From the IMG/VR virus record IMGVR_UViG_3300041403_000657, positions 1 through 21,197 of that record: DNA of 21,197 bases. One strand, 5' to 3'. Source of the DNA: a virus. Below, piece by piece: positions 9,099 to 21,197 of the stretch. The translations under genes and the position numbers were made by a program. The notes beneath the pieces are model-generated. The model saw only the letters and a list, made by a program, of their open reading frames with translations. It was not told the DNA's origin and did no database searches. Within the stretch, counting starts at the first letter, position 1; every line of letters starts with the position of its first letter.

Positions 9099-9383
9099 AT
9101 GGGCATGCGCTCTGACGGCAAAGCCACTACGTTGACTTCTACTGGTGGCGCAGTGTTCGGTGGTCCAGCACGGATCATGGGCATTCATTTTGTATCCAGC
9201 GCTACAGCAGGCAGCATCATCATTAAGGACGGCGGCTCAGGCGGCACGGCTTTAGCGACTTTTGCTACCCCAGCTGCGGTTAACGTTGGCTACATTGATC
9301 TTTCAGCATCTCCGATTCGTTGCGAGACTAGCGCCTACGGCGCGTTGTCAAACGTAACTTCGGCAACAGTGGTGTACGCATAA
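9099..9383 (+). CDS. Small beta-rich virion protein
   Basis: A 94-aa protein with a near-perfect AGGAGG site (9088-9093) five bases before the ATG. The sequence alternates hydrophobic and small polar residues, with GSIIIKDGGSGGTALATFAT (about 46-65) and a C-terminal NVTSATVVYA. This pattern is typical of single-domain beta-sandwich proteins encoded near phage heads and fibres. There is no signal peptide. The stop overlaps the next start (TAATG, 9381-9385). A decoration or fibre-associated role is inferred. Confidence 0.7.
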   Translation: MGMRSDGKATTLTSTGGAVFGGPARIMGIHFVSSATAGSIIIKDGGSGGTALATFATPAAVNVGYIDLSASPIRCETSAYGALSNVTSATVVYA

Positions 9384-9646
9384 TGGCTGATTTTCCTAGT
9401 TTAGCGGATATGATTGCCGACATTAAACAAGGCAATCCGGATATGTCTGACGCAGCAGCGCGCCGTGCGGCTCGCCAAGCTTTAGATGACATGATGGATC
9501 AATCGCAACAACGCTTCGAGAAGCGTAAAGCTGAAGGTAAAGAAAACTTTAAGTCTGGCGGCAAGGTCAAAAAGTACGCTAAAGGCGGCATGTGCCGTGG
9601 CGGTCGCTCTGCTACTCGTGGAACTAAGTTCTCAGGTGTTAAATAG
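9383..9646 (+). CDS. Small helical protein with basic KGG tail
   Basis: An 87-aa two-part protein. Residues 1-52 are a helical region (SLADMIADIKQGNPDMSDAA and onward) and residues 55-87 form a Gly/Lys/Arg-rich tail with SGGKVKKYAKGGMCRGGRSA (58-77). The tail motif GGKVKK recurs in the next gene, and YAKGG recurs in the gene at 17648. Such positively charged KGG tails are frequent in small proteins of marine phages; a nucleic-acid or capsid-interior contact is plausible but unproven. It starts in the TAATG overlap with the previous gene and ends in a TAGTG overlap with the next. Confidence 0.72.
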   Translation: MADFPSLADMIADIKQGNPDMSDAAARRAARQALDDMMDQSQQRFEKRKAEGKENFKSGGKVKKYAKGGMCRGGRSATRGTKFSGVK

Positions 9647-9942
9647 TGGCTATAAGCCGCGCTAATCTGCCTAAGCAGATGGAAGGTAAAATGAAAACTT
9701 GTAAAGCATGTAAAAGCCCAGCTAAATGTAAAAAAGCTGGTAAGTGTTTAGCTAAAGGTTACGCTGAAGGCGGCGCTTTGAAGATGGTTGAAAAGGATGG
9801 TAAAAAAGTTCCATTCTACGCAGCTGACGGCGAAGGCAAAATGATGGCTGGCGGCAAAGTCAAAAAGGCATACAAGTCTGGCGGCAAAGTTCGCGGCTGT
9901 GGTATGGCTAAGAAAGGCACTCGCAAAGCGAAGATGTACTGA
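9646..9942 (+). CDS. Cys/Lys-rich small protein with GGKVKK repeats
   Basis: A 98-aa basic protein with a GTG start in a TAGTG overlap (9644-9648). The GTG is preferred over Met12 because it gives the MAISRANLPKQM opening, which echoes the coat N-terminus MAISRAQM, and it keeps tight coupling. Cysteines 19, 22, 28 and 34 (CKACKSPAKCKKAGKC) could bind a metal; Cys85 is extra. GGKVKKAYKSGGKVRG (69-84) carries two GGKV copies and matches the tail of the preceding protein at DNA level as well. No function is known to me; the charge suggests binding to nucleic acid or to an acidic virion surface. Confidence 0.7.
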   Translation: MAISRANLPKQMEGKMKTCKACKSPAKCKKAGKCLAKGYAEGGALKMVEKDGKKVPFYAADGEGKMMAGGKVKKAYKSGGKVRGCGMAKKGTRKAKMY

Positions 9943-12254: not shown

Positions 12255-13499
12255 GTGGCTGCCGGTTGGGGAACGCTAGCGTGGGGTGAAGCTGGCTGGG
12301 GCGCTGTTCCAGTCACTATCACTTATGACGCGTGGGCCCGCGGCACTTGGGGTCAGGGCACGTTTGGTTCGACTATTGGCCCTGCGGCTCTTTCAACTTC
12401 TGTCGGAACTGTTTCTGTATCTGAAGGTACAGGCGTAGCGGTATCGCTAACCGGCGTAGCAGCCACAACTTCTTTAGGTAGCGAGACTACCTCCACAGAT
12501 CAGGTTATAGCGTTAACCGGTGTTGTTGGAACTACAGCTCTAGGCGATGAAACAGTTGTCGCAACCGCTAATGTAACTGTCACTGGCGTTGCTGGCACCG
12601 CCGCTCTAGGTGATGAGTCTGTTTCTACTGATCAGATTCTATCTGTAACCGGTGTCGCCGGTACTACGGCTCTAGGTGACGAGTCTGTTTCAACCGATCA
12701 GGTTCTATCTTTAACTGGCGTTGCAGGTACCACAGCTCTCGGCGCTGAAACAATCGTAGCTGACGCCAACGTATCTCTTACCGGTGTTGCCGGAACTACG
12801 GCTCTAGGTGATGAGGCTGTATCTACCGACCAAGTTCTATCGGTTACTGGCATTGCCGGTACTACGGCTTTAGGTGCCGAAACAGTTACAGCCGATGCTA
12901 ACGTAGCTCTTACTGGTGTATCGGCTACAGTAGTTTTAAATAATGACGGCGTTTACATATCGCAGACTGTAACTATAGAAGCTACTGGGCTTGAGGCTAC
13001 AACAGGGCTGGGCGATGAAACAGTTGTAGCTAAAGCAGTTGTCGAGCCTACGGGCGTTGCTGGAACTACAGCTCTAGGCGCCGAGTCTGTATTCACGGAT
13101 CAAATTCTTTCTGTTACTGGTGTCTCCGCAACCGCGTCTCTTGGCGATGAATCGCCATCCACCGATCAAGTTTTATCCGTCACTGGCGTAAGCAGCACGG
13201 CGTCTCTCGGGGCTGAAACTACAACCTCTGACGCTAACGTTTCTGTAACCGGTGTTGCCGGTACCACGGCTCTTGGTGATGAGACTGTAGACACAAGCAA
13301 TGTCATCGTCCGGTTAAGTGGCGTTCAGGCGACAGGAAATGTAACAAGTTTAATAATTTGGGGTACACTAGCATCAAGTGTTCCAGCTACAGCATGGGCT
13401 GAATCAGGCACTGGCGGAAGTGTACCGCCTACTTCGTGGACTGAAGCTGGCGCAGGCAGCGGTGTACCACCAACATCATGGTCGGACATAGCGGCTTAA
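12255..13499 (+). CDS. Fibre protein with about fourteen 22-residue repeats
   Basis: A 414-aa protein starting at GTG (12255). Residues 1-40 are Trp/Gly-rich (GWGTLAWGEAGWG, then ARGTWGQGTFG), a likely virion-anchoring head. Residues 65-366 are a tandem array of units of about 22 residues with core TGVAGTTALGDE followed by a variable VSTDQVLS or VVADANVS part. One unit near residue 220 is divergent (LTGVSATVVLNNDGVYIS). The C-terminal 48 residues carry three Trp-containing units (PATAWAESG, PPTSWTEAG, PPTSWSDIA). The array should form an extended beta fibre. DNA copies differ mostly at third positions, so the protein repeat is maintained while DNA identity is reduced. The start has only a weak AGAG site upstream. 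Confidence 0.8.
   Translation: MAAGWGTLAWGEAGWGAVPVTITYDAWARGTWGQGTFGSTIGPAALSTSVGTVSVSEGTGVAVSLTGVAATTSLGSETTSTDQVIALTGVVGTTALGDETVVATANVTVTGVAGTAALGDESVSTDQILSVTGVAGTTALGDESVSTDQVLSLTGVAGTTALGAETIVADANVSLTGVAGTTALGDEAVSTDQVLSVTGIAGTTALGAETVTADANVALTGVSATVVLNNDGVYISQTVTIEATGLEATTGLGDETVVAKAVVEPTGVAGTTALGAESVFTDQILSVTGVSATASLGDESPSTDQVLSVTGVSSTASLGAETTTSDANVSVTGVAGTTALGDETVDTSNVIVRLSGVQATGNVTSLIIWGTLASSVPATAWAESGTGGSVPPTSWTEAGAGSGVPPTSWSDIAA
12447..13352 (+). repeat. Degenerate 66-bp tandem coding repeat
   Basis: About fourteen copies of a 66-bp unit encode the 22-residue fibre repeats. Units around 12580-12900 and 13240-13290 are the most alike, sharing for example ACGGCTCTAGGTGA-like cores with scattered synonymous differences. 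Two alternating subtypes are visible, one ending STDQVLS and one ending ADANVS, so the array may have grown by duplication of a two-unit block. Confidence 0.85.
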
Positions 13500-14066: not shown

Positions 14067-14420
14067 ATGGCAGCACCAAACATTGTAGGCGTAACTACGA
14101 TCACTGGTAAGACCGCGGTTCAAGCCGTAGGTACATCAGCGTCAGCTATCGTCACTAACTCAGCAGCAAGCGGTAAAGTATACAAGGTTAACGCTTTGTA
14201 CATCTCAAACGTAGACGGCACTGACAACGCTGAAATCAACGTTGACCTGTATCGCTCATCAACTGCGTACCACATCGGCAAGACCATCGTGGTCCCTGCT
14301 GACGCTACTTTGGACGTTTTAAGTAAAGCAATCTACCTTGAGGAAGGCGATTCACTGCGTTTAACAGCAAACGCAACATCTGACCTTGAGGCTGTTTGTT
14401 CATACGAAGAGATTAGCTAA
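14067..14420 (+). CDS. Small beta-sandwich virion protein
   Basis: A 117-aa protein with LYISNVDGTDNAEINVDLYR (48-67), then STAYHIGKTIVVPADATLDV (70-89) and IYLEEGDSLRLTANATSDLE (93-112), ending in CSYEEIS. This is a recurrent single-domain virion protein in marine and other phages, usually next to fibre genes. The function is structural by context. AGGAG precedes the ATG and the stop overlaps the first glycine-rich gene (TAATG, 14418-14422). Confidence 0.75.
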   Translation: MAAPNIVGVTTITGKTAVQAVGTSASAIVTNSAASGKVYKVNALYISNVDGTDNAEINVDLYRSSTAYHIGKTIVVPADATLDVLSKAIYLEEGDSLRLTANATSDLEAVCSYEEIS

Positions 14421-15319
14421 TGGCAACATTTCCGGACACTGATGGTGCGTCTGGAATCTGGACGCTAAAGCAGCAAAAACGTGCTCAAAAGGGTGATAAA
14501 TGGCCTGAGTTGCCTGTTGGTATTACGGCTACTGGCGGCACTATAACGACATCTGGTGATTACAAGTATCACGCTTTCACTTCATCAGGAACATTAACTG
14601 TTTCCGATTTAGGCAATCAAGGCAGTACGATTGAATACATCGTTGTTGGTGGCGGTGGTTCAGGCGGTACTGGTTCATACGGTATAGGTGGTCTATACAA
14701 TGGCGGTGGCGGCGGCGGTGGTGGTATACAACACAGCGCAAGTTTTACAACCTCTGTAACTGATTACTCGATAACTATCGGCGGTGGCGCAGCAGGTGTT
14801 GCACCACAAAACAACCCGGGTAACAACGGCACCGCTTCTACTGCTTTTGGAGTTACGGCAGGTGCAGGTAACAAAAACAGCGGACTTACAGGTGGATCCT
14901 CTGGTACTCCGCAAAGCAATTCTGGCGGTGGCGGCGGATCGTATTCCGGTGGCGGCGGTGGCGGCGCAGGTGGAACAGGCGTTGGTGGCGGTGGCAACGT
15001 ATCTAAGCTTGGTGGCGCAGGTGCTTATTACCCATCCTTTACCTCATGGGGTGCAGCTGCTCAATCTACTGCAACAACAACTCCAACTCCAAATGGTTAC
15101 TTTGCGGGTGGTGGTTCTGGAGCTGGTGCAAGTGCAATTGGCAGACCATCTGGCGGCGGTGGCTCATCGTCAACTCAGGGAGCTTCAACTTCAACTGGTA
15201 TTCATGCAGGTTTTGCTAATACTGGCGGTGGCGGTGGCGGTGGTTACGCACAAAGCAGTTACTCAGGTAACGGCGGCTCAGGCATTGTAATCATTCGTTA
15301 TCAGTATCAGAATTTTTAA
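14420..15319 (+). CDS. Glycine-rich tail-tip protein, paralogue 1
   Basis: A 299-aa probable adhesin. It opens with the anchor motif SGIWTLKQQKRAQKGDKWPE (11-30), shared in form with the next two genes. It then has a strand module TGGTITTSGDYKYHAFTSSG (38-57) and, from about 74 to 290, poly-glycine stretches separated by short variable segments, ending GGSGIVIIRYQYQNF. Such Gly-rich domains in phage receptor-binding proteins are known to pack as polyglycine-II helices, with the loops between contacting the receptor. It differs from paralogues 2 and 3 by having the DYKYHAFTSSG module before, not after, the glycine region. The long open frames on the opposite strand here are proline-rich shadows. 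Confidence 0.82.
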   Translation: MATFPDTDGASGIWTLKQQKRAQKGDKWPELPVGITATGGTITTSGDYKYHAFTSSGTLTVSDLGNQGSTIEYIVVGGGGSGGTGSYGIGGLYNGGGGGGGGIQHSASFTTSVTDYSITIGGGAAGVAPQNNPGNNGTASTAFGVTAGAGNKNSGLTGGSSGTPQSNSGGGGGSYSGGGGGGAGGTGVGGGGNVSKLGGAGAYYPSFTSWGAAAQSTATTTPTPNGYFAGGGSGAGASAIGRPSGGGGSSSTQGASTSTGIHAGFANTGGGGGGGYAQSSYSGNGGSGIVIIRYQYQNF

Positions 15320-15329
15320 GGGTTAAACG

Positions 15330-16298
15330 ATGGCGGACAATCCAAGTTCAACAGAAGCATCTGGCGTTTGGTCTTTAGACGACAACTACAATGCAGAGGC
15401 AGGTGATAACTGGCCTGAAATGCCTTATCCCATTTCGTACCTCGTTATTGCCGGTGGCGGTGGTGGCGGTGGTGACTTCGGCGGCGGCGCAGGTGCAGGT
15501 GGCTACAGAAATAGCTATGCCTCAGAAACTTCTGGTGGTGGAGCGTCAACTGAAACACCAATATCTTTACTTGCAGGAACAACATTAACCGTTACTGTCG
15601 GTGCAGGTGGTTCAGGTAGCGGTAAGCCGTCAACTACCGGTTCAAACGGCAATACCTCAAGCATTACTGGTTCAGGCATTACAACTGTTACTACATCAGG
15701 CGGTGGTCTTGGTGGTGGTTTGTCACCAACTGGCGGTTTTGGTCAAACAGGTGGTTCAGGTGGTGGTCATCAGTGTGGCGGCACCATTTCAACAAGAGCA
15801 TCTGGAACAACTGGTGAGGGATATGCCGGTGGTACGTCAAATGTTTTTAGTGGGGGCTGGACTGCAACCGGCGGCGGCGGTGGTGGCGCAGGTGAGTTAG
15901 GCGACAATGGCGGTATTTCAGGCGCAGGAGATAATGGTGATGGTGGTGACGGTCTTTCATCAAGCATCACAGGCTCGGCAGTAACCCGAGGTGGCGGCGG
16001 TGGTTCTGCTGCTATTTCAGGCGGAAGCGAAACAATAGGCTATGGCGGCGCAGGCGGCGGCGGTAACGGCGCACTCGAATACGGCAATGGTGGAAATGGC
16101 TCTGCAAACACTGGCGGCGGTGGCGGTGGCTCAGGTGGCTATAATGGTGAATTCGGTGGTACTGGTGGTTCAGGCGTTGTAATCCTAAGAATCCCAACTG
16201 CAAACTATTCAGGCACAACTACTGGTTCACCTTCTGTTTCTACTGACGGTTCAGATACAATCTTAGTGTTTAATTCATCAGGCTCTTACACTTCATAA
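15330..16298 (+). CDS. Glycine-rich tail-tip protein, paralogue 2
   Basis: A 322-aa paralogue of its neighbours. Anchor motif SGVWSLDDNYNAEAGDNWPE (11-30), then YLVIAGGGGGGG and a long glycine-rich region with insertions such as SNVFSGGWTATG, ending GGSGVVILRIPTANYSG and a C-terminal module TGSPSVSTDGSDTILVFNSS (298-317). It starts 11 bases after the previous stop. It has the same proposed role as a receptor-binding tip. Variable loops between glycine blocks differ strongly from the other paralogues while the ends stay alike, as expected where receptor specificity is under selection. Confidence 0.82.
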   Translation: MADNPSSTEASGVWSLDDNYNAEAGDNWPEMPYPISYLVIAGGGGGGGDFGGGAGAGGYRNSYASETSGGGASTETPISLLAGTTLTVTVGAGGSGSGKPSTTGSNGNTSSITGSGITTVTTSGGGLGGGLSPTGGFGQTGGSGGGHQCGGTISTRASGTTGEGYAGGTSNVFSGGWTATGGGGGGAGELGDNGGISGAGDNGDGGDGLSSSITGSAVTRGGGGGSAAISGGSETIGYGGAGGGGNGALEYGNGGNGSANTGGGGGGSGGYNGEFGGTGGSGVVILRIPTANYSGTTTGSPSVSTDGSDTILVFNSSGSYTS

Positions 16299-16307
16299 GG
16301 AACACAC

Positions 16308-17222
16308 ATGGCACAATTTCCAAGTACAAGTTCTGCTTACGGTGTTTGGTCACTGAAAGAAAACCGTGATGCTGAGATGGGCGATAACTGGCCTGAGTTG
16401 CCACCTGTTGTTGAGTATCTCGTTATCGCCGGTGGTGCTTCTGGCGGTGGTGGTGGTACATCATCAGTATACGATGGTGGCGGCGGTGGTGGAGCCGGTG
16501 GTTATCGCACATCTACACTTGAATTAACCAAGTCTACTGCATACACAGTTACTATTGGTGCCGGTGGCGCATCAATACAATCAGACCGTGGCAATAACGG
16601 CAATACTTCTACCTTTGCAACTATTAGCTCGTCCGGTGGCGGTGGCGGTGGTTGGAATAGTAATAAGTATGGTAAAGACGGCGGCTCAGGTGGCGGTGGT
16701 TCCGAGCAATCTAGCGCAGATGGCGGCTCAGGTAACATAGGCGGTTATACACCAGTAGAAGGTTATGATGGCGGCTCTGGTTTAGTAGGCGCTAATGGTG
16801 CCGGCGCAGGCGGTGGCGGTGCCTCAGAAGCAGGCCATGACCCGACTGGAAGCTACCCTAATGGAAGCGGTGGCGCAGGTGGTGATGGCGAAGCTTCTTC
16901 AATTACTGGTTCATCTGTTACTCGTGCAGGTGGCGGTGGCGGTGGTATCCGCTACTCAGGTTCAGGCGTTGCAGGAGCAGGTGGCGCAGGTGGTGGCGGC
17001 AATGGCGGTGGCGTTGGTGCAGCCGGTTCAGCCGGTTCAACTAATACAGGCTCGGGCGGCGGCGGTGGTGGCGCAAATAATGTTTCAGGCGCAGGCGGCT
17101 CTGGTGTAGTCATCCTTCGCACTCTCTCTACCGCAGCTTCAACGACAGGCTCACCTTCAGTAACTACAGATGGTAGTTATAATATCTACACGTTCACATC
17201 TTCTGGTTCAATTACGTTCTAA
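16308..17222 (+). CDS. Glycine-rich tail-tip protein, paralogue 3
   Basis: A 304-aa protein with the same plan: anchor YGVWSLKENRDAEMGDNWPE (11-30), VEYLVIAGGASGGGGG, a glycine region to about 265, GGSGVVILRTLSTAAS and a terminal TGSPSVTTDGSYNIYTFTSS (280-299). It begins nine bases after paralogue 2. Overall it is closer to paralogue 2 than to paralogue 1 in module order. Whether all three are on each virion or serve as a recombination reservoir cannot be read from the sequence. Confidence 0.82.
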   Translation: MAQFPSTSSAYGVWSLKENRDAEMGDNWPELPPVVEYLVIAGGASGGGGGTSSVYDGGGGGGAGGYRTSTLELTKSTAYTVTIGAGGASIQSDRGNNGNTSTFATISSSGGGGGGWNSNKYGKDGGSGGGGSEQSSADGGSGNIGGYTPVEGYDGGSGLVGANGAGAGGGGASEAGHDPTGSYPNGSGGAGGDGEASSITGSSVTRAGGGGGGIRYSGSGVAGAGGAGGGGNGGGVGAAGSAGSTNTGSGGGGGGANNVSGAGGSGVVILRTLSTAASTTGSPSVTTDGSYNIYTFTSSGSITF

Positions 17223-18118: not shown

Positions 18119-18706
18119 ATGACCCCCGCCGCCCGCCTGTACTTTTTATTCGTATCACTTCTGTTCGGCGGCTTAATTGCTGTGCTACTTAGCTTTTTGT
18201 TCCCCGCCCCCGCCCACGCGGCAGACCCAATCGTCACGGAATCCACATCCACGGTGACAACCAATGGCTCGCAAACGACAACAGTTAAGTCTCCACCACC
18301 TTCAGCAATTGCACCCCAATTCAGTGCAGGAAATAACAGCGATCTTTGCACAATCGGAGCTACAGGCGCCGTCCAAACCCAAATCCTCGGCATTTCAATC
18401 GGTTCAACCTTTACCGAAGAAAATTGTATCCGTCTGAAGAACGCCAAAACGCTTTACGACATGGGTATGAAGGTAGCCGCTGTCTCGGTGATGTGCCAAG
18501 ACAAGAAGGTGTTTGACGCCATGATGAATGCGGGCACACCCTGCCCATACGACGGTCTAATTGGAGATGCAGCAAAAGCGGCGTGGGAAACGCACACTGA
18601 CAAAACTCCAGTAGAAGGAGAAGACGATGAACCTACTGCTGAGGACAAGCGCAACCAAGCTCTTGGCATTATCGGTGGCGTATTCGGCAGCTTGTTATTC
18701 TTCTGA
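18119..18706 (+). CDS. Exported four-Cys protein with C-terminal membrane segment
   Basis: A 195-aa protein. Residues 6-34 are a clear Sec signal (hydrophobic core followed by APAHA, with likely cleavage after Ala34). The mature part begins with a Ser/Thr/Pro-rich linker and then a domain with Cys77, 103, 126 and 142 (DLCTIGATGAVQTQILG, ENCIRLKNAKTLYDMGMKVA, MCQDKKVFD, GTPCPYDGLIGD), enough for two disulfides in the periplasm. The last 15 residues (ALGIIGGVFGSLLFF) are hydrophobic. I recognise the domain from marine phages but not a function. The gene begins two bases after the holin-like stop and its last 80 bases encode the signal peptide of the next gene in another frame. Spanin-like or surface-altering roles are possible. 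Confidence 0.78.
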   Translation: MTPAARLYFLFVSLLFGGLIAVLLSFLFPAPAHAADPIVTESTSTVTTNGSQTTTVKSPPPSAIAPQFSAGNNSDLCTIGATGAVQTQILGISIGSTFTEENCIRLKNAKTLYDMGMKVAAVSVMCQDKKVFDAMMNAGTPCPYDGLIGDAAKAAWETHTDKTPVEGEDDEPTAEDKRNQALGIIGGVFGSLLFF

Positions 18707-19484
18707 TTATGAGTTTGGATACACTAATAACGCTGCTAGTGGGGGTAGTTCTTGGGGGATGTCTGACCCTCTTTTTCCTGTGGACTCAATACCGGGAATC
18801 GACATCAACGGCGTCATCTACCAGTACACCGCAGTCAAAGAACGAGCCGACCCCTATACCGTCAGTATCCAGAACGAAAATGCCAATGGAAGTGGATATA
18901 TATTCAGGGAAACTGATGATTGGTCAGGGAAAAGTGGTGCGACTATCAACAAATTCGTACCGGTGCCATATAGTCCGCTGGGAAACTGGGGTACTGGATC
19001 AATTGAACAGGTGGGTATAGGTGAAGTTCAAGACCCTACTGTTGTATATACCTATCGTATTGACCCTGAGCGGTTGCAGCCATCCCAAGAAGCCTACGAC
19101 TTTGGTACCGTTTCTACTTACGACGCCCTTAGTGACGGTTACGTCACAGCATCGCTAGAACCCACAGACCGCGAGCTGTACGAAGACGACGATGAAGTTA
19201 ATCAAAAAGACACAGAAGAAGAGGACGATGGACGCCTTGAAAAGGCACTTGCGGCTTCTGAAAACGCGCTAACAATCGGGGTTGGTACGACCCAAAACGC
19301 GCTGGTGCAAGCGATGAACGTTGCAACCAACCTAAACACGTACTACGCTGCCAATATTCCGGGTGGCGCGTACCGCGAAACTGTTGTTTTAAAAGACAAA
19401 AACATACCGGATAATCGACGCGCGCTTCGCAGTTTGGGGCAGCAAAAGTTACACACTGAGATGATCGAGGAGCAATATCGATGA
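18627..19484 (+). CDS. Exported, possibly lipid-anchored 285-aa protein
   Basis: The start is set by AAGGAG (18615-18620) six bases before ATG 18627, inside the preceding gene in another frame. The N-terminus MNLLLRTSATKLLALSVAYS is a signal peptide ending SAAC; Cys23 is the only cysteine in the protein, so a non-standard lipobox or ordinary cleavage are both possible. The mature part has VIYQYTAVK, IQNENANGSGYIFRETDDWS, GKSGATINKFVPV, YRIDPERLQPSQEAYDFGTV, TDRELYEDDDEVNQ and a C-terminal helical part with ALTIGVGTTQNALVQAMNVA and NIPGGAYRE. These are family-like conserved blocks in marine phages without known function. Full use of this frame argues against the competing 18709-19020 frame. 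The stop overlaps the next start (ATGA). Confidence 0.78.
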   Translation: MNLLLRTSATKLLALSVAYSAACYSSDYEFGYTNNAASGGSSWGMSDPLFPVDSIPGIDINGVIYQYTAVKERADPYTVSIQNENANGSGYIFRETDDWSGKSGATINKFVPVPYSPLGNWGTGSIEQVGIGEVQDPTVVYTYRIDPERLQPSQEAYDFGTVSTYDALSDGYVTASLEPTDRELYEDDDEVNQKDTEEEDDGRLEKALAASENALTIGVGTTQNALVQAMNVATNLNTYYAANIPGGAYRETVVLKDKNIPDNRRALRSLGQQKLHTEMIEEQYR

Positions 19485-19978
19485 ATAGTGTCAAAATTGT
19501 AGCTACATTGTGTCTACTTTCTGGTGCAGCGCATGCTGTTGACGTGCCAATCACAGGCACAGTGCAATCGCGCTGCATTATTCAGACAGACGTTCCGGGC
19601 ACCTACGGTAACCCTAATGCGTATACGCTCTCAACAGCACCAGCAGATGGTGGTGTGCTTCCAGTTGTTCGTTACGACGTGACTTTAGCTGATGCGTATA
19701 AAGCGCAGATTACATACCCAACGTCTTTTTCAGCGGCGCCATCATCCAACGACACCGTGACCTTCACGGGTTCTGTTGACGTGCAAGCTGTTGGCGACGT
19801 GGCGATGGCTGACTATCAGACAGACTCTGTGACCTACGACGAGACACGTGAGTACGACCTTACAGCTACCGGTAGCACTTGGTTCAAGATTAGCTCAACT
19901 GCGACTAATGGTGGTGACAAGGCGTTTCCCGGCGGCACTTACCGAGCAGTGGTGCAGGCTGAATGTATCGCTCAGTAA
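19481..19978 (+). CDS. Exported pilin-like / spore-coat-U-like beta protein
   Basis: A 165-aa protein with a short Sec signal (VKIVATLCLLSGAAHA, cleavage after Ala19). The mature part is beta-rich with just two cysteines, Cys32 near the start (TGTVQSRCIIQTD) and Cys162 at the end (YRAVVQAECIAQ), which could join the first and last strands of an Ig-like sandwich. The opening pattern and Gly/Thr-rich strands resemble secreted fimbrial subunits such as the CsuA/spore-coat-U group, although overall similarity is distant. Other blocks: GGVLPVVRYDVTLADAYKAQ, TFTGSVDVQAVGDVAMADYQ, TGSTWFKISS. It overlaps the previous gene by ATGA and the next, chaperone-like gene by 16 bases. No usher is in the window. 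Confidence 0.65.
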   Translation: MNSVKIVATLCLLSGAAHAVDVPITGTVQSRCIIQTDVPGTYGNPNAYTLSTAPADGGVLPVVRYDVTLADAYKAQITYPTSFSAAPSSNDTVTFTGSVDVQAVGDVAMADYQTDSVTYDETREYDLTATGSTWFKISSTATNGGDKAFPGGTYRAVVQAECIAQ

Positions 19979-20334
19979 TCTTTTTGCTTTGTTTGTGGCA
20001 ATCTGCCACAGCTCACGATATGACGCCGACGTACCCAAAATGGGAGGCGTCACACGTGCAAGGCATATTCAAAGCTAAGATGGAGCTGTTTAACAAACGC
20101 TCTGATGTAAATTGGTACGAGATTGGGGTTTTTACTGAAGACTGGAAGCCCGTTCAGTTCGTTTCACAGTACAAAATGGTCCGTATGGACCACTTATCTA
20201 AGATCAAGTTTGATGTGTATATCAACGCAATTGACGTGCCTGTAGCTAGGTACATCTGTTCTGAGACTAGGCTACGGGAAAACTCCAATAACAAGCCAAT
20301 GATTTCGTCGAAGATATGCTCAAAAATACGTTAA
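19963..20334 (+). CDS. Exported small protein resembling a pilus-chaperone domain
   Basis: A 123-aa protein with signal MYRSVIFLLCLWQSATA (cleavage after Ala17). The mature core ELFNKRSDVNWYEIGVFTED (41-60) followed by WKPVQFVSQYKMV (61-73), then HLSKIKFDVYINAIDVPVAR (77-96) reads like the N-terminal Ig domain of periplasmic PapD-type fimbrial chaperones, followed by YICSETRLRE and a basic SSKICSKIR end with Cys99/Cys119 suited to a disulfide. It is about half the length of a true chaperone, having only one domain. It overlaps the pilin-like gene by 16 bases and the next gene by 19, so all three are probably co-translated. The chaperone reading is moderate; it may equally be another exported Ig-like subunit. 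Confidence 0.6.
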   Translation: MYRSVIFLLCLWQSATAHDMTPTYPKWEASHVQGIFKAKMELFNKRSDVNWYEIGVFTEDWKPVQFVSQYKMVRMDHLSKIKFDVYINAIDVPVARYICSETRLRENSNNKPMISSKICSKIR

Positions 20335-20753
20335 TCGTCGCTGGGTGGTACCTGCTGATTGTTATCGGCTCCGCCAAAGTTTTGGCTGACAGCAGCTCTC
20401 TTAACCTTCAACTCCCCAACGCAGGTGGTACCTATGGAACTGACTCGATTCGAGCTGGGGACCTTGATTGCAGCAATAGCATTGGCGGCGCTACAAACTT
20501 TGAATTGGGTGTTACCGGAATAGTTAACAACGCCGTTAGCCCGTTTGAGAACGAAGACCCAACAAATCCGCAGACTAAAGACCTAGGGTTGTACGCACGG
20601 ATTGTAATTCCGCTAGATGCGCCCAAAGAAAGAATTAACTGTAACACCTTGTATCAGCTAGAATTACAGCGTAGAAGGTTAGAAGTGCAGAAGCTTCAGC
20701 AAGAGCTGGATAACTTACGTAGATTGCAGAAAAACGCGGGGTTTGAGAATTAG
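20316..20753 (+). CDS. Exported protein with C-terminal coiled coil
   Basis: A 145-aa protein with an N-terminal signal or anchor (TLIVAGWYLLIVIGSAKVLA, likely cleavage after Ala24). The mature region SLNLQLPNAGGTYGTDSIRA (28-47) and GLYARIVIPLDAPKERINCN (91-110) frames Cys52 and Cys109, probably a disulfide. It is followed by a coiled-coil helix TLYQLELQRRRLEVQKLQQE (111-130) to the end. I have seen this kind of beta domain plus coiled coil in marine phage genomes but know no function. Overlap of 19 bases with the chaperone-like gene ties it to the same module. It could be a membrane-proximal stalk or a subunit that oligomerises through its tail. Confidence 0.68.
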   Translation: MLKNTLIVAGWYLLIVIGSAKVLADSSSLNLQLPNAGGTYGTDSIRAGDLDCSNSIGGATNFELGVTGIVNNAVSPFENEDPTNPQTKDLGLYARIVIPLDAPKERINCNTLYQLELQRRRLEVQKLQQELDNLRRLQKNAGFEN

Positions 20754-20876: not shown

Positions 20877-21197
20877 ATGGCAGACCTTGGGGAAAAACTT
20901 GACGACATTGAAGGCTTGGCTGACAAACGTCTCAGCGTGGGTGGGCTGCGGTTTACACCTACTCAGCTTGGTCTTGCTCTCGGTCTTGTTTCCAGTGTTG
21001 TTGGTGCTCTTTACGGCGGCTTCGTTATGTACCAAAAGGTTGAAGAGATCGCATCGTTAGACTTAGGCGCATACGCCCAGCAGATGCAGCAGACCAGCGA
21101 CAAGATTGAGACGCAGGAAAAACTGCTCGACTCAATCGAACAGAATTTGCGTGACGCCAAGCAATTGACGTACGACATTGAAAAACGTGTGAACGAT
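20877..21197 (+). CDS. Membrane-anchored coiled-coil protein, cut by window end
   Basis: The frame from ATG 20877 stays open to the last base (107 codons). The N-terminus MADLGEKLDDIEGLADKRLS is amphipathic helix. Residues about 29-51 (TQLGLALGLVSSVVGALYGG, then FVMY) form one membrane segment. From about 53 on, the sequence is heptad-rich helix (QQMQQTSDKIETQEKLLDSI, then EQNLRDAKQLTYDIEKRV). This is the plan of a phage membrane protein with a long extracytoplasmic or cytoplasmic coil; inner-membrane spanins also have an N-terminal anchor and coil, so a lysis role is possible. The C-terminus is outside the window, so neither length nor class can be fixed. Confidence 0.75.
   Translation, partial: MADLGEKLDDIEGLADKRLSVGGLRFTPTQLGLALGLVSSVVGALYGGFVMYQKVEEIASLDLGAYAQQMQQTSDKIETQEKLLDSIEQNLRDAKQLTYDIEKRVND

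Follow-up and report, generated by a model that had tools for sequence, protein, structure and literature searches.

A cassette of three overlapping genes for exported proteins

We asked what three overlapping genes for exported proteins might do for the phage that carries them. The window, a linear viral contig of 21,197 bases, encodes terminase, portal, and major head proteins upstream of these genes, which we call C, D, and E; all three lie on the plus strand. Gene C (19481 to 19978) encodes a 165-amino-acid (aa) exported protein, predicted to be a pilin-like beta protein, in which Cys32 and Cys162 are invariant. Gene D (19963 to 20334) encodes an exported protein of 123 aa with invariant Cys99 and Cys119, a candidate single-Ig-domain chaperone of the PapD-like kind. 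Gene E (20316 to 20753) encodes an exported protein of 145 aa with two invariant cysteines, a short beta-type domain, and a C-terminal heptad-like tail; judged by eye, the tail is probably a coiled coil, and from its sequence E would probably be a beta plus coiled-coil protein. The start codon of C falls inside the stop of the gene before it (ATGA at 19481), and C and D overlap by 16 nucleotides (nt) and D and E by 19 nt. Read by eye, the N termini of C, D, and E are Sec-type signals (MNSVKIVATLCLLSGAAHA/VDV, MYRSVIFLLCLWQSATA/HDM, and MLKNTLIVAGWYLLIVIGSAKVLA/DSS, respectively), from which we infer Sec export of all three, and the original prediction of three overlapping exported genes is upheld at these positions. 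It had also counted exactly two cysteines per mature protein, and this number recurs in 37 of 37 aligned relatives of C, 45 of 45 of D, and 31 of 31 of E. Since it is kept in all 113 aligned relatives, it is not due to chance.

Several features of the mature N termini vary among relatives. In two relatives (L114 and L130), C opens with a lipoprotein signal (LTGC and VAGC), and judging from this lipobox it may be membrane anchored there. The first residue of mature D (residue 18, 20014 to 20016) is a histidine that is invariant in 45 marine rows and is not found in D of Vibrio phages. At the mature N terminus of E, the alternating hydrophobic motif LNLQLP (20400 to 20417, plus strand) follows an hxhxhP pattern shared by the marine E sequences (29 of 29) and absent from the Vibrio and jumbo-phage versions compared. 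As a lead only, this motif could serve as a donor strand in marine E.

The cassette belongs to a larger block that the original prediction missed. Upstream are gene A (18119 to 18706, plus strand), encoding an exported protein with a hydrophobic C terminus, and gene B (18627 to 19484, plus strand), encoding an exported acidic protein; downstream is gene F (20877 to 21197, plus strand), which is cut by the window end and encodes an N-terminal transmembrane segment followed by a coiled coil. All three are partners of C, D, and E in the same conserved block of marine relatives. F is weakly similar to Rz spanins (a match to the Rz-like phrog_739 at an E value of 0.005), and gene A also occurs on its own in pelagiphages, a roseophage, and JWAlpha. 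Nested out of frame within B are two open reading frames (ORFs), one at 18709 to 19020 (103 aa, with an N-terminal transmembrane segment and a length that stays at 103 to 110 aa in 17 of 75 relatives) and one at 19021 to 19158 (45 aa, with the lipobox LSGC in the window), which are possibly an embedded spanin-like pair. Farther upstream, positions 14420 to 17222 hold three tandem glycine-rich paralogues of ~300 aa with a common N-terminal motif (GVWSL...GDNWPE), and the two that were tested match phrog_2295, a family of unknown function. A 414-aa ORF contains 66-nt tandem repeats (22-aa units) at 12498 to 12919.

Conservation and distribution

A search with C returned 57 viral contigs, and a search with E returned 356 matching stretches, of which 80 were kept. 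When duplicates were removed and only E loci with sufficient DNA upstream were counted, D was found at 95 of 95 and C at 94 of 94; over all 96 deduplicated E loci, these counts were 95 and 94, and at the loci lacking D or C the contig end falls just before E. C-D-E is therefore a strict, obligate unit in which C and D are never separated. Gene order in marine relatives is always A-B-C-D-E-F, while the genes flanking the block vary. A and B are missing only at contig ends or in Vibrio phages, and a few loci lack F. The cultured pelagiphage HTVC115P has A and F (gp54 and gp49), and profile searches found no C, D, or E in it; it is a natural version without the cassette. In the bacterial genome collection, only five loci were found, all on contigs of metagenome-assembled genomes and none a clear chromosomal operon, and a plasmid search found no cassette.

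The same unit is widespread in cultured Vibrio phages. A single-sequence tblastn search with E matched 173 Vibrio phage records, with homologues of C and D directly upstream, and searches with Vibrio queries placed C, D, and E each in ~180 records of cultured Vibrio phages, which span several genome types, in the same C-D-E order. Carriers include the T5-like Thalassavirus Bennett, K478b, D80, D82, and vB_VhaS-tm. Profiles of C and D built from marine rows alone gave adjacent single hits, next to E, in the complete 126.6-kb genome of Vibrio phage Bennett; hidden Markov models of another set included Vibrio sequences, and Vibrio scores from that set were not counted as evidence. Profile-profile comparison of marine with Vibrio families gave E values of 5e-10 for C and 3e-7 for D, both over the full length, and 4e-22 for E. 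On five different Vibrio phage backbones, the cassette lies directly 3′ of large fiber-like genes, a label that reflects size and collagen-like sequence, the matching PHROG having no function. In vB_VhaS-tm, the cassette sits among head genes. In Vibrio phage D82, a gene for a PagP-like lipid A acylation protein (9224 to 9661 of that record) lies ~3.8 kb from the cassette.

Searches with E also reached jumbo phages of Klebsiella and an rv5-like phage of Erwinia. In 24 records of enterobacterial jumbo or rv5-like phages, an exported trio occurs in the rearranged order D′-E′-C′. E′ is clearly homologous to E and D′ only partly to D, and no homology of C′ to C was detectable by profile-profile comparison; C′ likewise carries a signal sequence, and its two cysteines are far apart. 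The trio is probably, not provably, related to C-D-E. In the Erwinia phage (L158, 5995 to 7215), it lies inside an array of ~26 tRNA genes, and in the Klebsiella jumbo phages (L152 among them) it lies among nonstructural genes; in the neighborhoods inspected, neither is beside fiber genes.

Predicted folds of C and D

Confident AlphaFold models were produced from alignments of 37 rows for C and 45 rows for D, with mean pLDDT values of 91 and 85. A Foldseek search of the C model against the PDB returned chaperone-usher (CU) pilins as its first six matches (including CfaB, FimF, and the pilin domain of PapG; best E value, 2.3e-3); FimG and Caf1 are also among the CU pilins matched, and weaker matches include the usher-independent fiber proteins of Pyrobaculum bundling pili and CanA. 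For the D model, DraB ranked first (E value, 6.5e-4), and most of the top 50 matches were CU chaperones, PapD, FimC, FaeE, SafB, and Caf1M among them; D also resembles other Ig-like folds, namely, MSP, VAP-A, and a Cu-SOD. Since the two independent searches land on both partners of one known complex, we favor the fold pairing, and the models suggest that C is pilin-like and D PapD-like at the level of fold, with E values that are borderline for both proteins and TM scores of about 0.4 to 0.56. A search of C against a viral structure library gave no match below 1e-3.

Sequence methods gave a different picture. C, D, and E had no Pfam match to PapD_N (PF00345) or pilin families, and scans of the cassette proteins against Pfam and PHROGs returned families of unknown function only. 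Sequence profile searches against solved structures were empty, and hhalign comparisons with six chaperones and twelve pilins of Escherichia coli K-12 gave nothing above reversed-sequence controls; the best D score against the K-12 chaperones falls at the G1 strand and likewise does not exceed those controls. The original prediction, which called C pilin-like and D a small PapD-like Ig-domain protein, had named profile and structure searches as its check, and the answer was divided: predicted structures put CU pilins and CU chaperones on top for C and D, respectively, and sequence profiles recovered neither CU family. Unrelated folds would have spoken against it, and the models of C and D match, at borderline E values, Ig-like pilin and chaperone folds.

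Proposed function and rival explanations

The same prediction held that the cassette could build a fimbria-like fiber on the cell surface. A classical fimbria is unlikely, since no usher occurs in the records searched, C lacks a donor extension, and D is a single Ig domain. The usher family PF00577 was found in 0 of 19 phage or viral records, which include complete genomes and perhaps several fragments, and was found in the E. coli control; PapD_N was likewise found in 0 of 19, and E is not an usher. In C, about 5 residues separate the predicted cleavage site from the first Cys-bearing strand (strand A), and without a donor extension it has no strand to lend to the following subunit. Mature D (~105 aa) has no second chaperone domain and thus does not form the two-Ig boomerang.

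We instead propose, with a probability of roughly 45%, that C, D, and E form an accessory chaperone-subunit cassette that has no usher and works in the infected Gram-negative cell's envelope. In this model, whose fold pairing is computed and whose C-D interaction and function we infer, C, D, and E would all be exported by Sec; D, a minimal one-domain PapD-like chaperone, would fold and cap C in the periplasm; and C would then be handed from D to E. The coiled-coil tail of E might oligomerize C or dock it to F, the coiled-coil protein of the inner membrane. The C-E complex would end in or at the outer membrane, and we place C at a membrane because of the lipobox in two relatives. The benefit would be an altered surface of the infected cell, through receptor masking, superinfection exclusion, or the sparing of progeny from useless readsorption.

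The position of the cassette bears on this proposal. In marine phages, B and F flank it; in Vibrio phages, it lies 3′ of fiber-like genes; the Erwinia phage has it in a tRNA array; and jumbo phages carry it among nonstructural genes. Because position varies in this way, as it does for envelope-modifying accessory genes, we favor an envelope-modifying complex. Since the cassette is accessory, portable, and repeatedly adjoins putative tail fiber genes, it most likely alters adsorption or superinfection, which we propose with moderate confidence; we know of no exclusion phenotype for the cassette. Points against the envelope reading are the lack of a CU sequence match, the borderline Foldseek values, and lysis-type genes close by in the window and several relatives. 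A specific form of it, a donor-strand system without an usher in which D would complement C, the LxLxLP strand of E would replace D, and multimerized C would block adsorption or superinfection, seems to us improbable.

The nearby lysis genes suggest a second explanation, in which C, D, and E together with A, B, and F would form a trans-envelope complex that destabilizes or bridges the outer membrane late in infection, as an unusual spanin partner or substitute. Holin-, lysozyme-, and spanin-like genes are found close to the block in the window and in many marine relatives; F is weakly Rz-like, and F and probably E have coiled coils; and Vibrio phages have a lipoprotein ORF overlapping the 3′ end of their E gene, with holin and endolysin genes nearby. 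However, this linkage varies and is absent in vB_VhaS-tm, the Erwinia phage, and the jumbo phages, where no lysis genes lie beside the cassette, and HTVC115P keeps A and F without C-D-E. Furthermore, spanins have, to our knowledge, no need of a folding chaperone. Since lysis genes are near the cassette in the window and some relatives and not everywhere, we rank a lysis role second, at about one chance in four. That other phages carry the cassette in accessory and tRNA-array regions speaks against an obligatory lysis gene and likewise against a virion part. Although C-D-E follow the virion genes on the same strand in the window, tailed phages assemble in the cytoplasm, all three proteins carry Sec signals, and virion proteins are a very improbable explanation. 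A paper on phiKp24 yielded no proteomic data.

Two further explanations turn on how the fold matches are read. C and D may be small, unrelated periplasmic proteins with Ig-like folds, such as phage-encoded inhibitors of a host envelope protein, with D no chaperone at all. Ig-like folds are common, the Foldseek values are borderline, CU sequence homology is lacking, and a chaperone would not need the invariant mature N-terminal histidine of marine D. Conversely, such a coincidence would have to explain why independent searches chose both partners of one complex, why C and D are never separated, why Vibrio D ends in a strand (VGRVCAKLRLYWP) that by eye resembles the G1 strand of CU chaperones, and why D has a Cys pair at what we take to be the F1/G1 position known from FGL chaperones; we consider it unlikely. 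Slightly less probable still is that C polymerizes by donor-strand exchange without an usher into a fimbria-like fiber on infected cells. The resemblance of C to CU pilins, its weaker matches to usher-independent fiber proteins, and the alternating hydrophobic N terminus of E, which could act as a donor strand, are consistent with such a fiber, whereas the missing usher in 19 records, the lack of a donor extension in C, the single C gene, and the absence of the E motif from Vibrio and jumbo-phage versions argue against it.

Novelty and comparison with known systems

The original prediction of an undescribed system stands: C-D-E is an obligate unit, and a literature search limited to open-license papers found no description of such a cassette or of phage-encoded fimbrial chaperones or pilins, and nothing relevant on virion proteomics of carrier phages. 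In the records inspected, C, D, and E are hypothetical or unannotated. If our reading is right, lytic phages manage the folding of periplasmic subunits to remodel the host envelope, by means of a compact, strict unit that marine phage contigs have in common with Vibrio phages, T5-like and others, and probably with jumbo phages of enterobacteria. Among the carriers are cultured Vibrio phages whose hosts are laboratory strains.

Among known phage systems, T5 Llp and lambdoid-phage Cor are superinfection exclusion genes beside receptor-binding genes. Like them, the cassette encodes small exported accessory proteins; unlike them, it comprises three genes with a chaperone-like member. It adjoins fiber-like genes in Vibrio phages, and in the window it is close to glycine-rich proteins, but it is not always near fiber genes. 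Like the spanins Rz and Rz1, the cassette encodes envelope proteins that are exported or tethered to a membrane, includes probable coiled coils, and has lysis genes as neighbors in some genomes, but C and D have no fold relation to spanins and the cassette is also present at a distance from lysis genes. Two other candidates, curli (CsgE/CsgF) and histidine-brace copper proteins, had no support from fold or sequence.

The closest comparison is with CU systems. Like the CU chaperones (PapD/FimC and the FGL chaperones DraB/Caf1M), D is exported, has a predicted Ig-like fold, and is encoded next to a pilin-like gene; it differs in having one domain rather than two, no PF00345 match, no usher gene, and a phage carrier. 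FGL chaperones have a Cys pair in F1/G1, and the pair of D presumably lies, as theirs does, in the last two strands. Vibrio D, whose last strand is the G1-like one, ends in VGRxCxKxRLYWP with invariant Arg/Lys, and marine D keeps a basic residue and has no clear A1 Arg. Like the CU pilins (CfaB, FimF/FimG, the pilin domain of PapG, and Caf1), C is an exported beta protein of pilin size with a chaperone-like gene downstream; unlike them, it lacks an N-terminal donor extension, a pilin family match, and an usher, and its cysteines are in the first and last strands rather than in strands A and B. Because sequence methods see neither family, we describe C and D as working like, and not as being members of, the CU families. 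Bacterial pili are a known case of pilin-like subunits exported with the help of a chaperone, and the cassette, as far as its function can be inferred, is an usher-free, phage-borne, and apparently undescribed form of the same chaperone-subunit principle.
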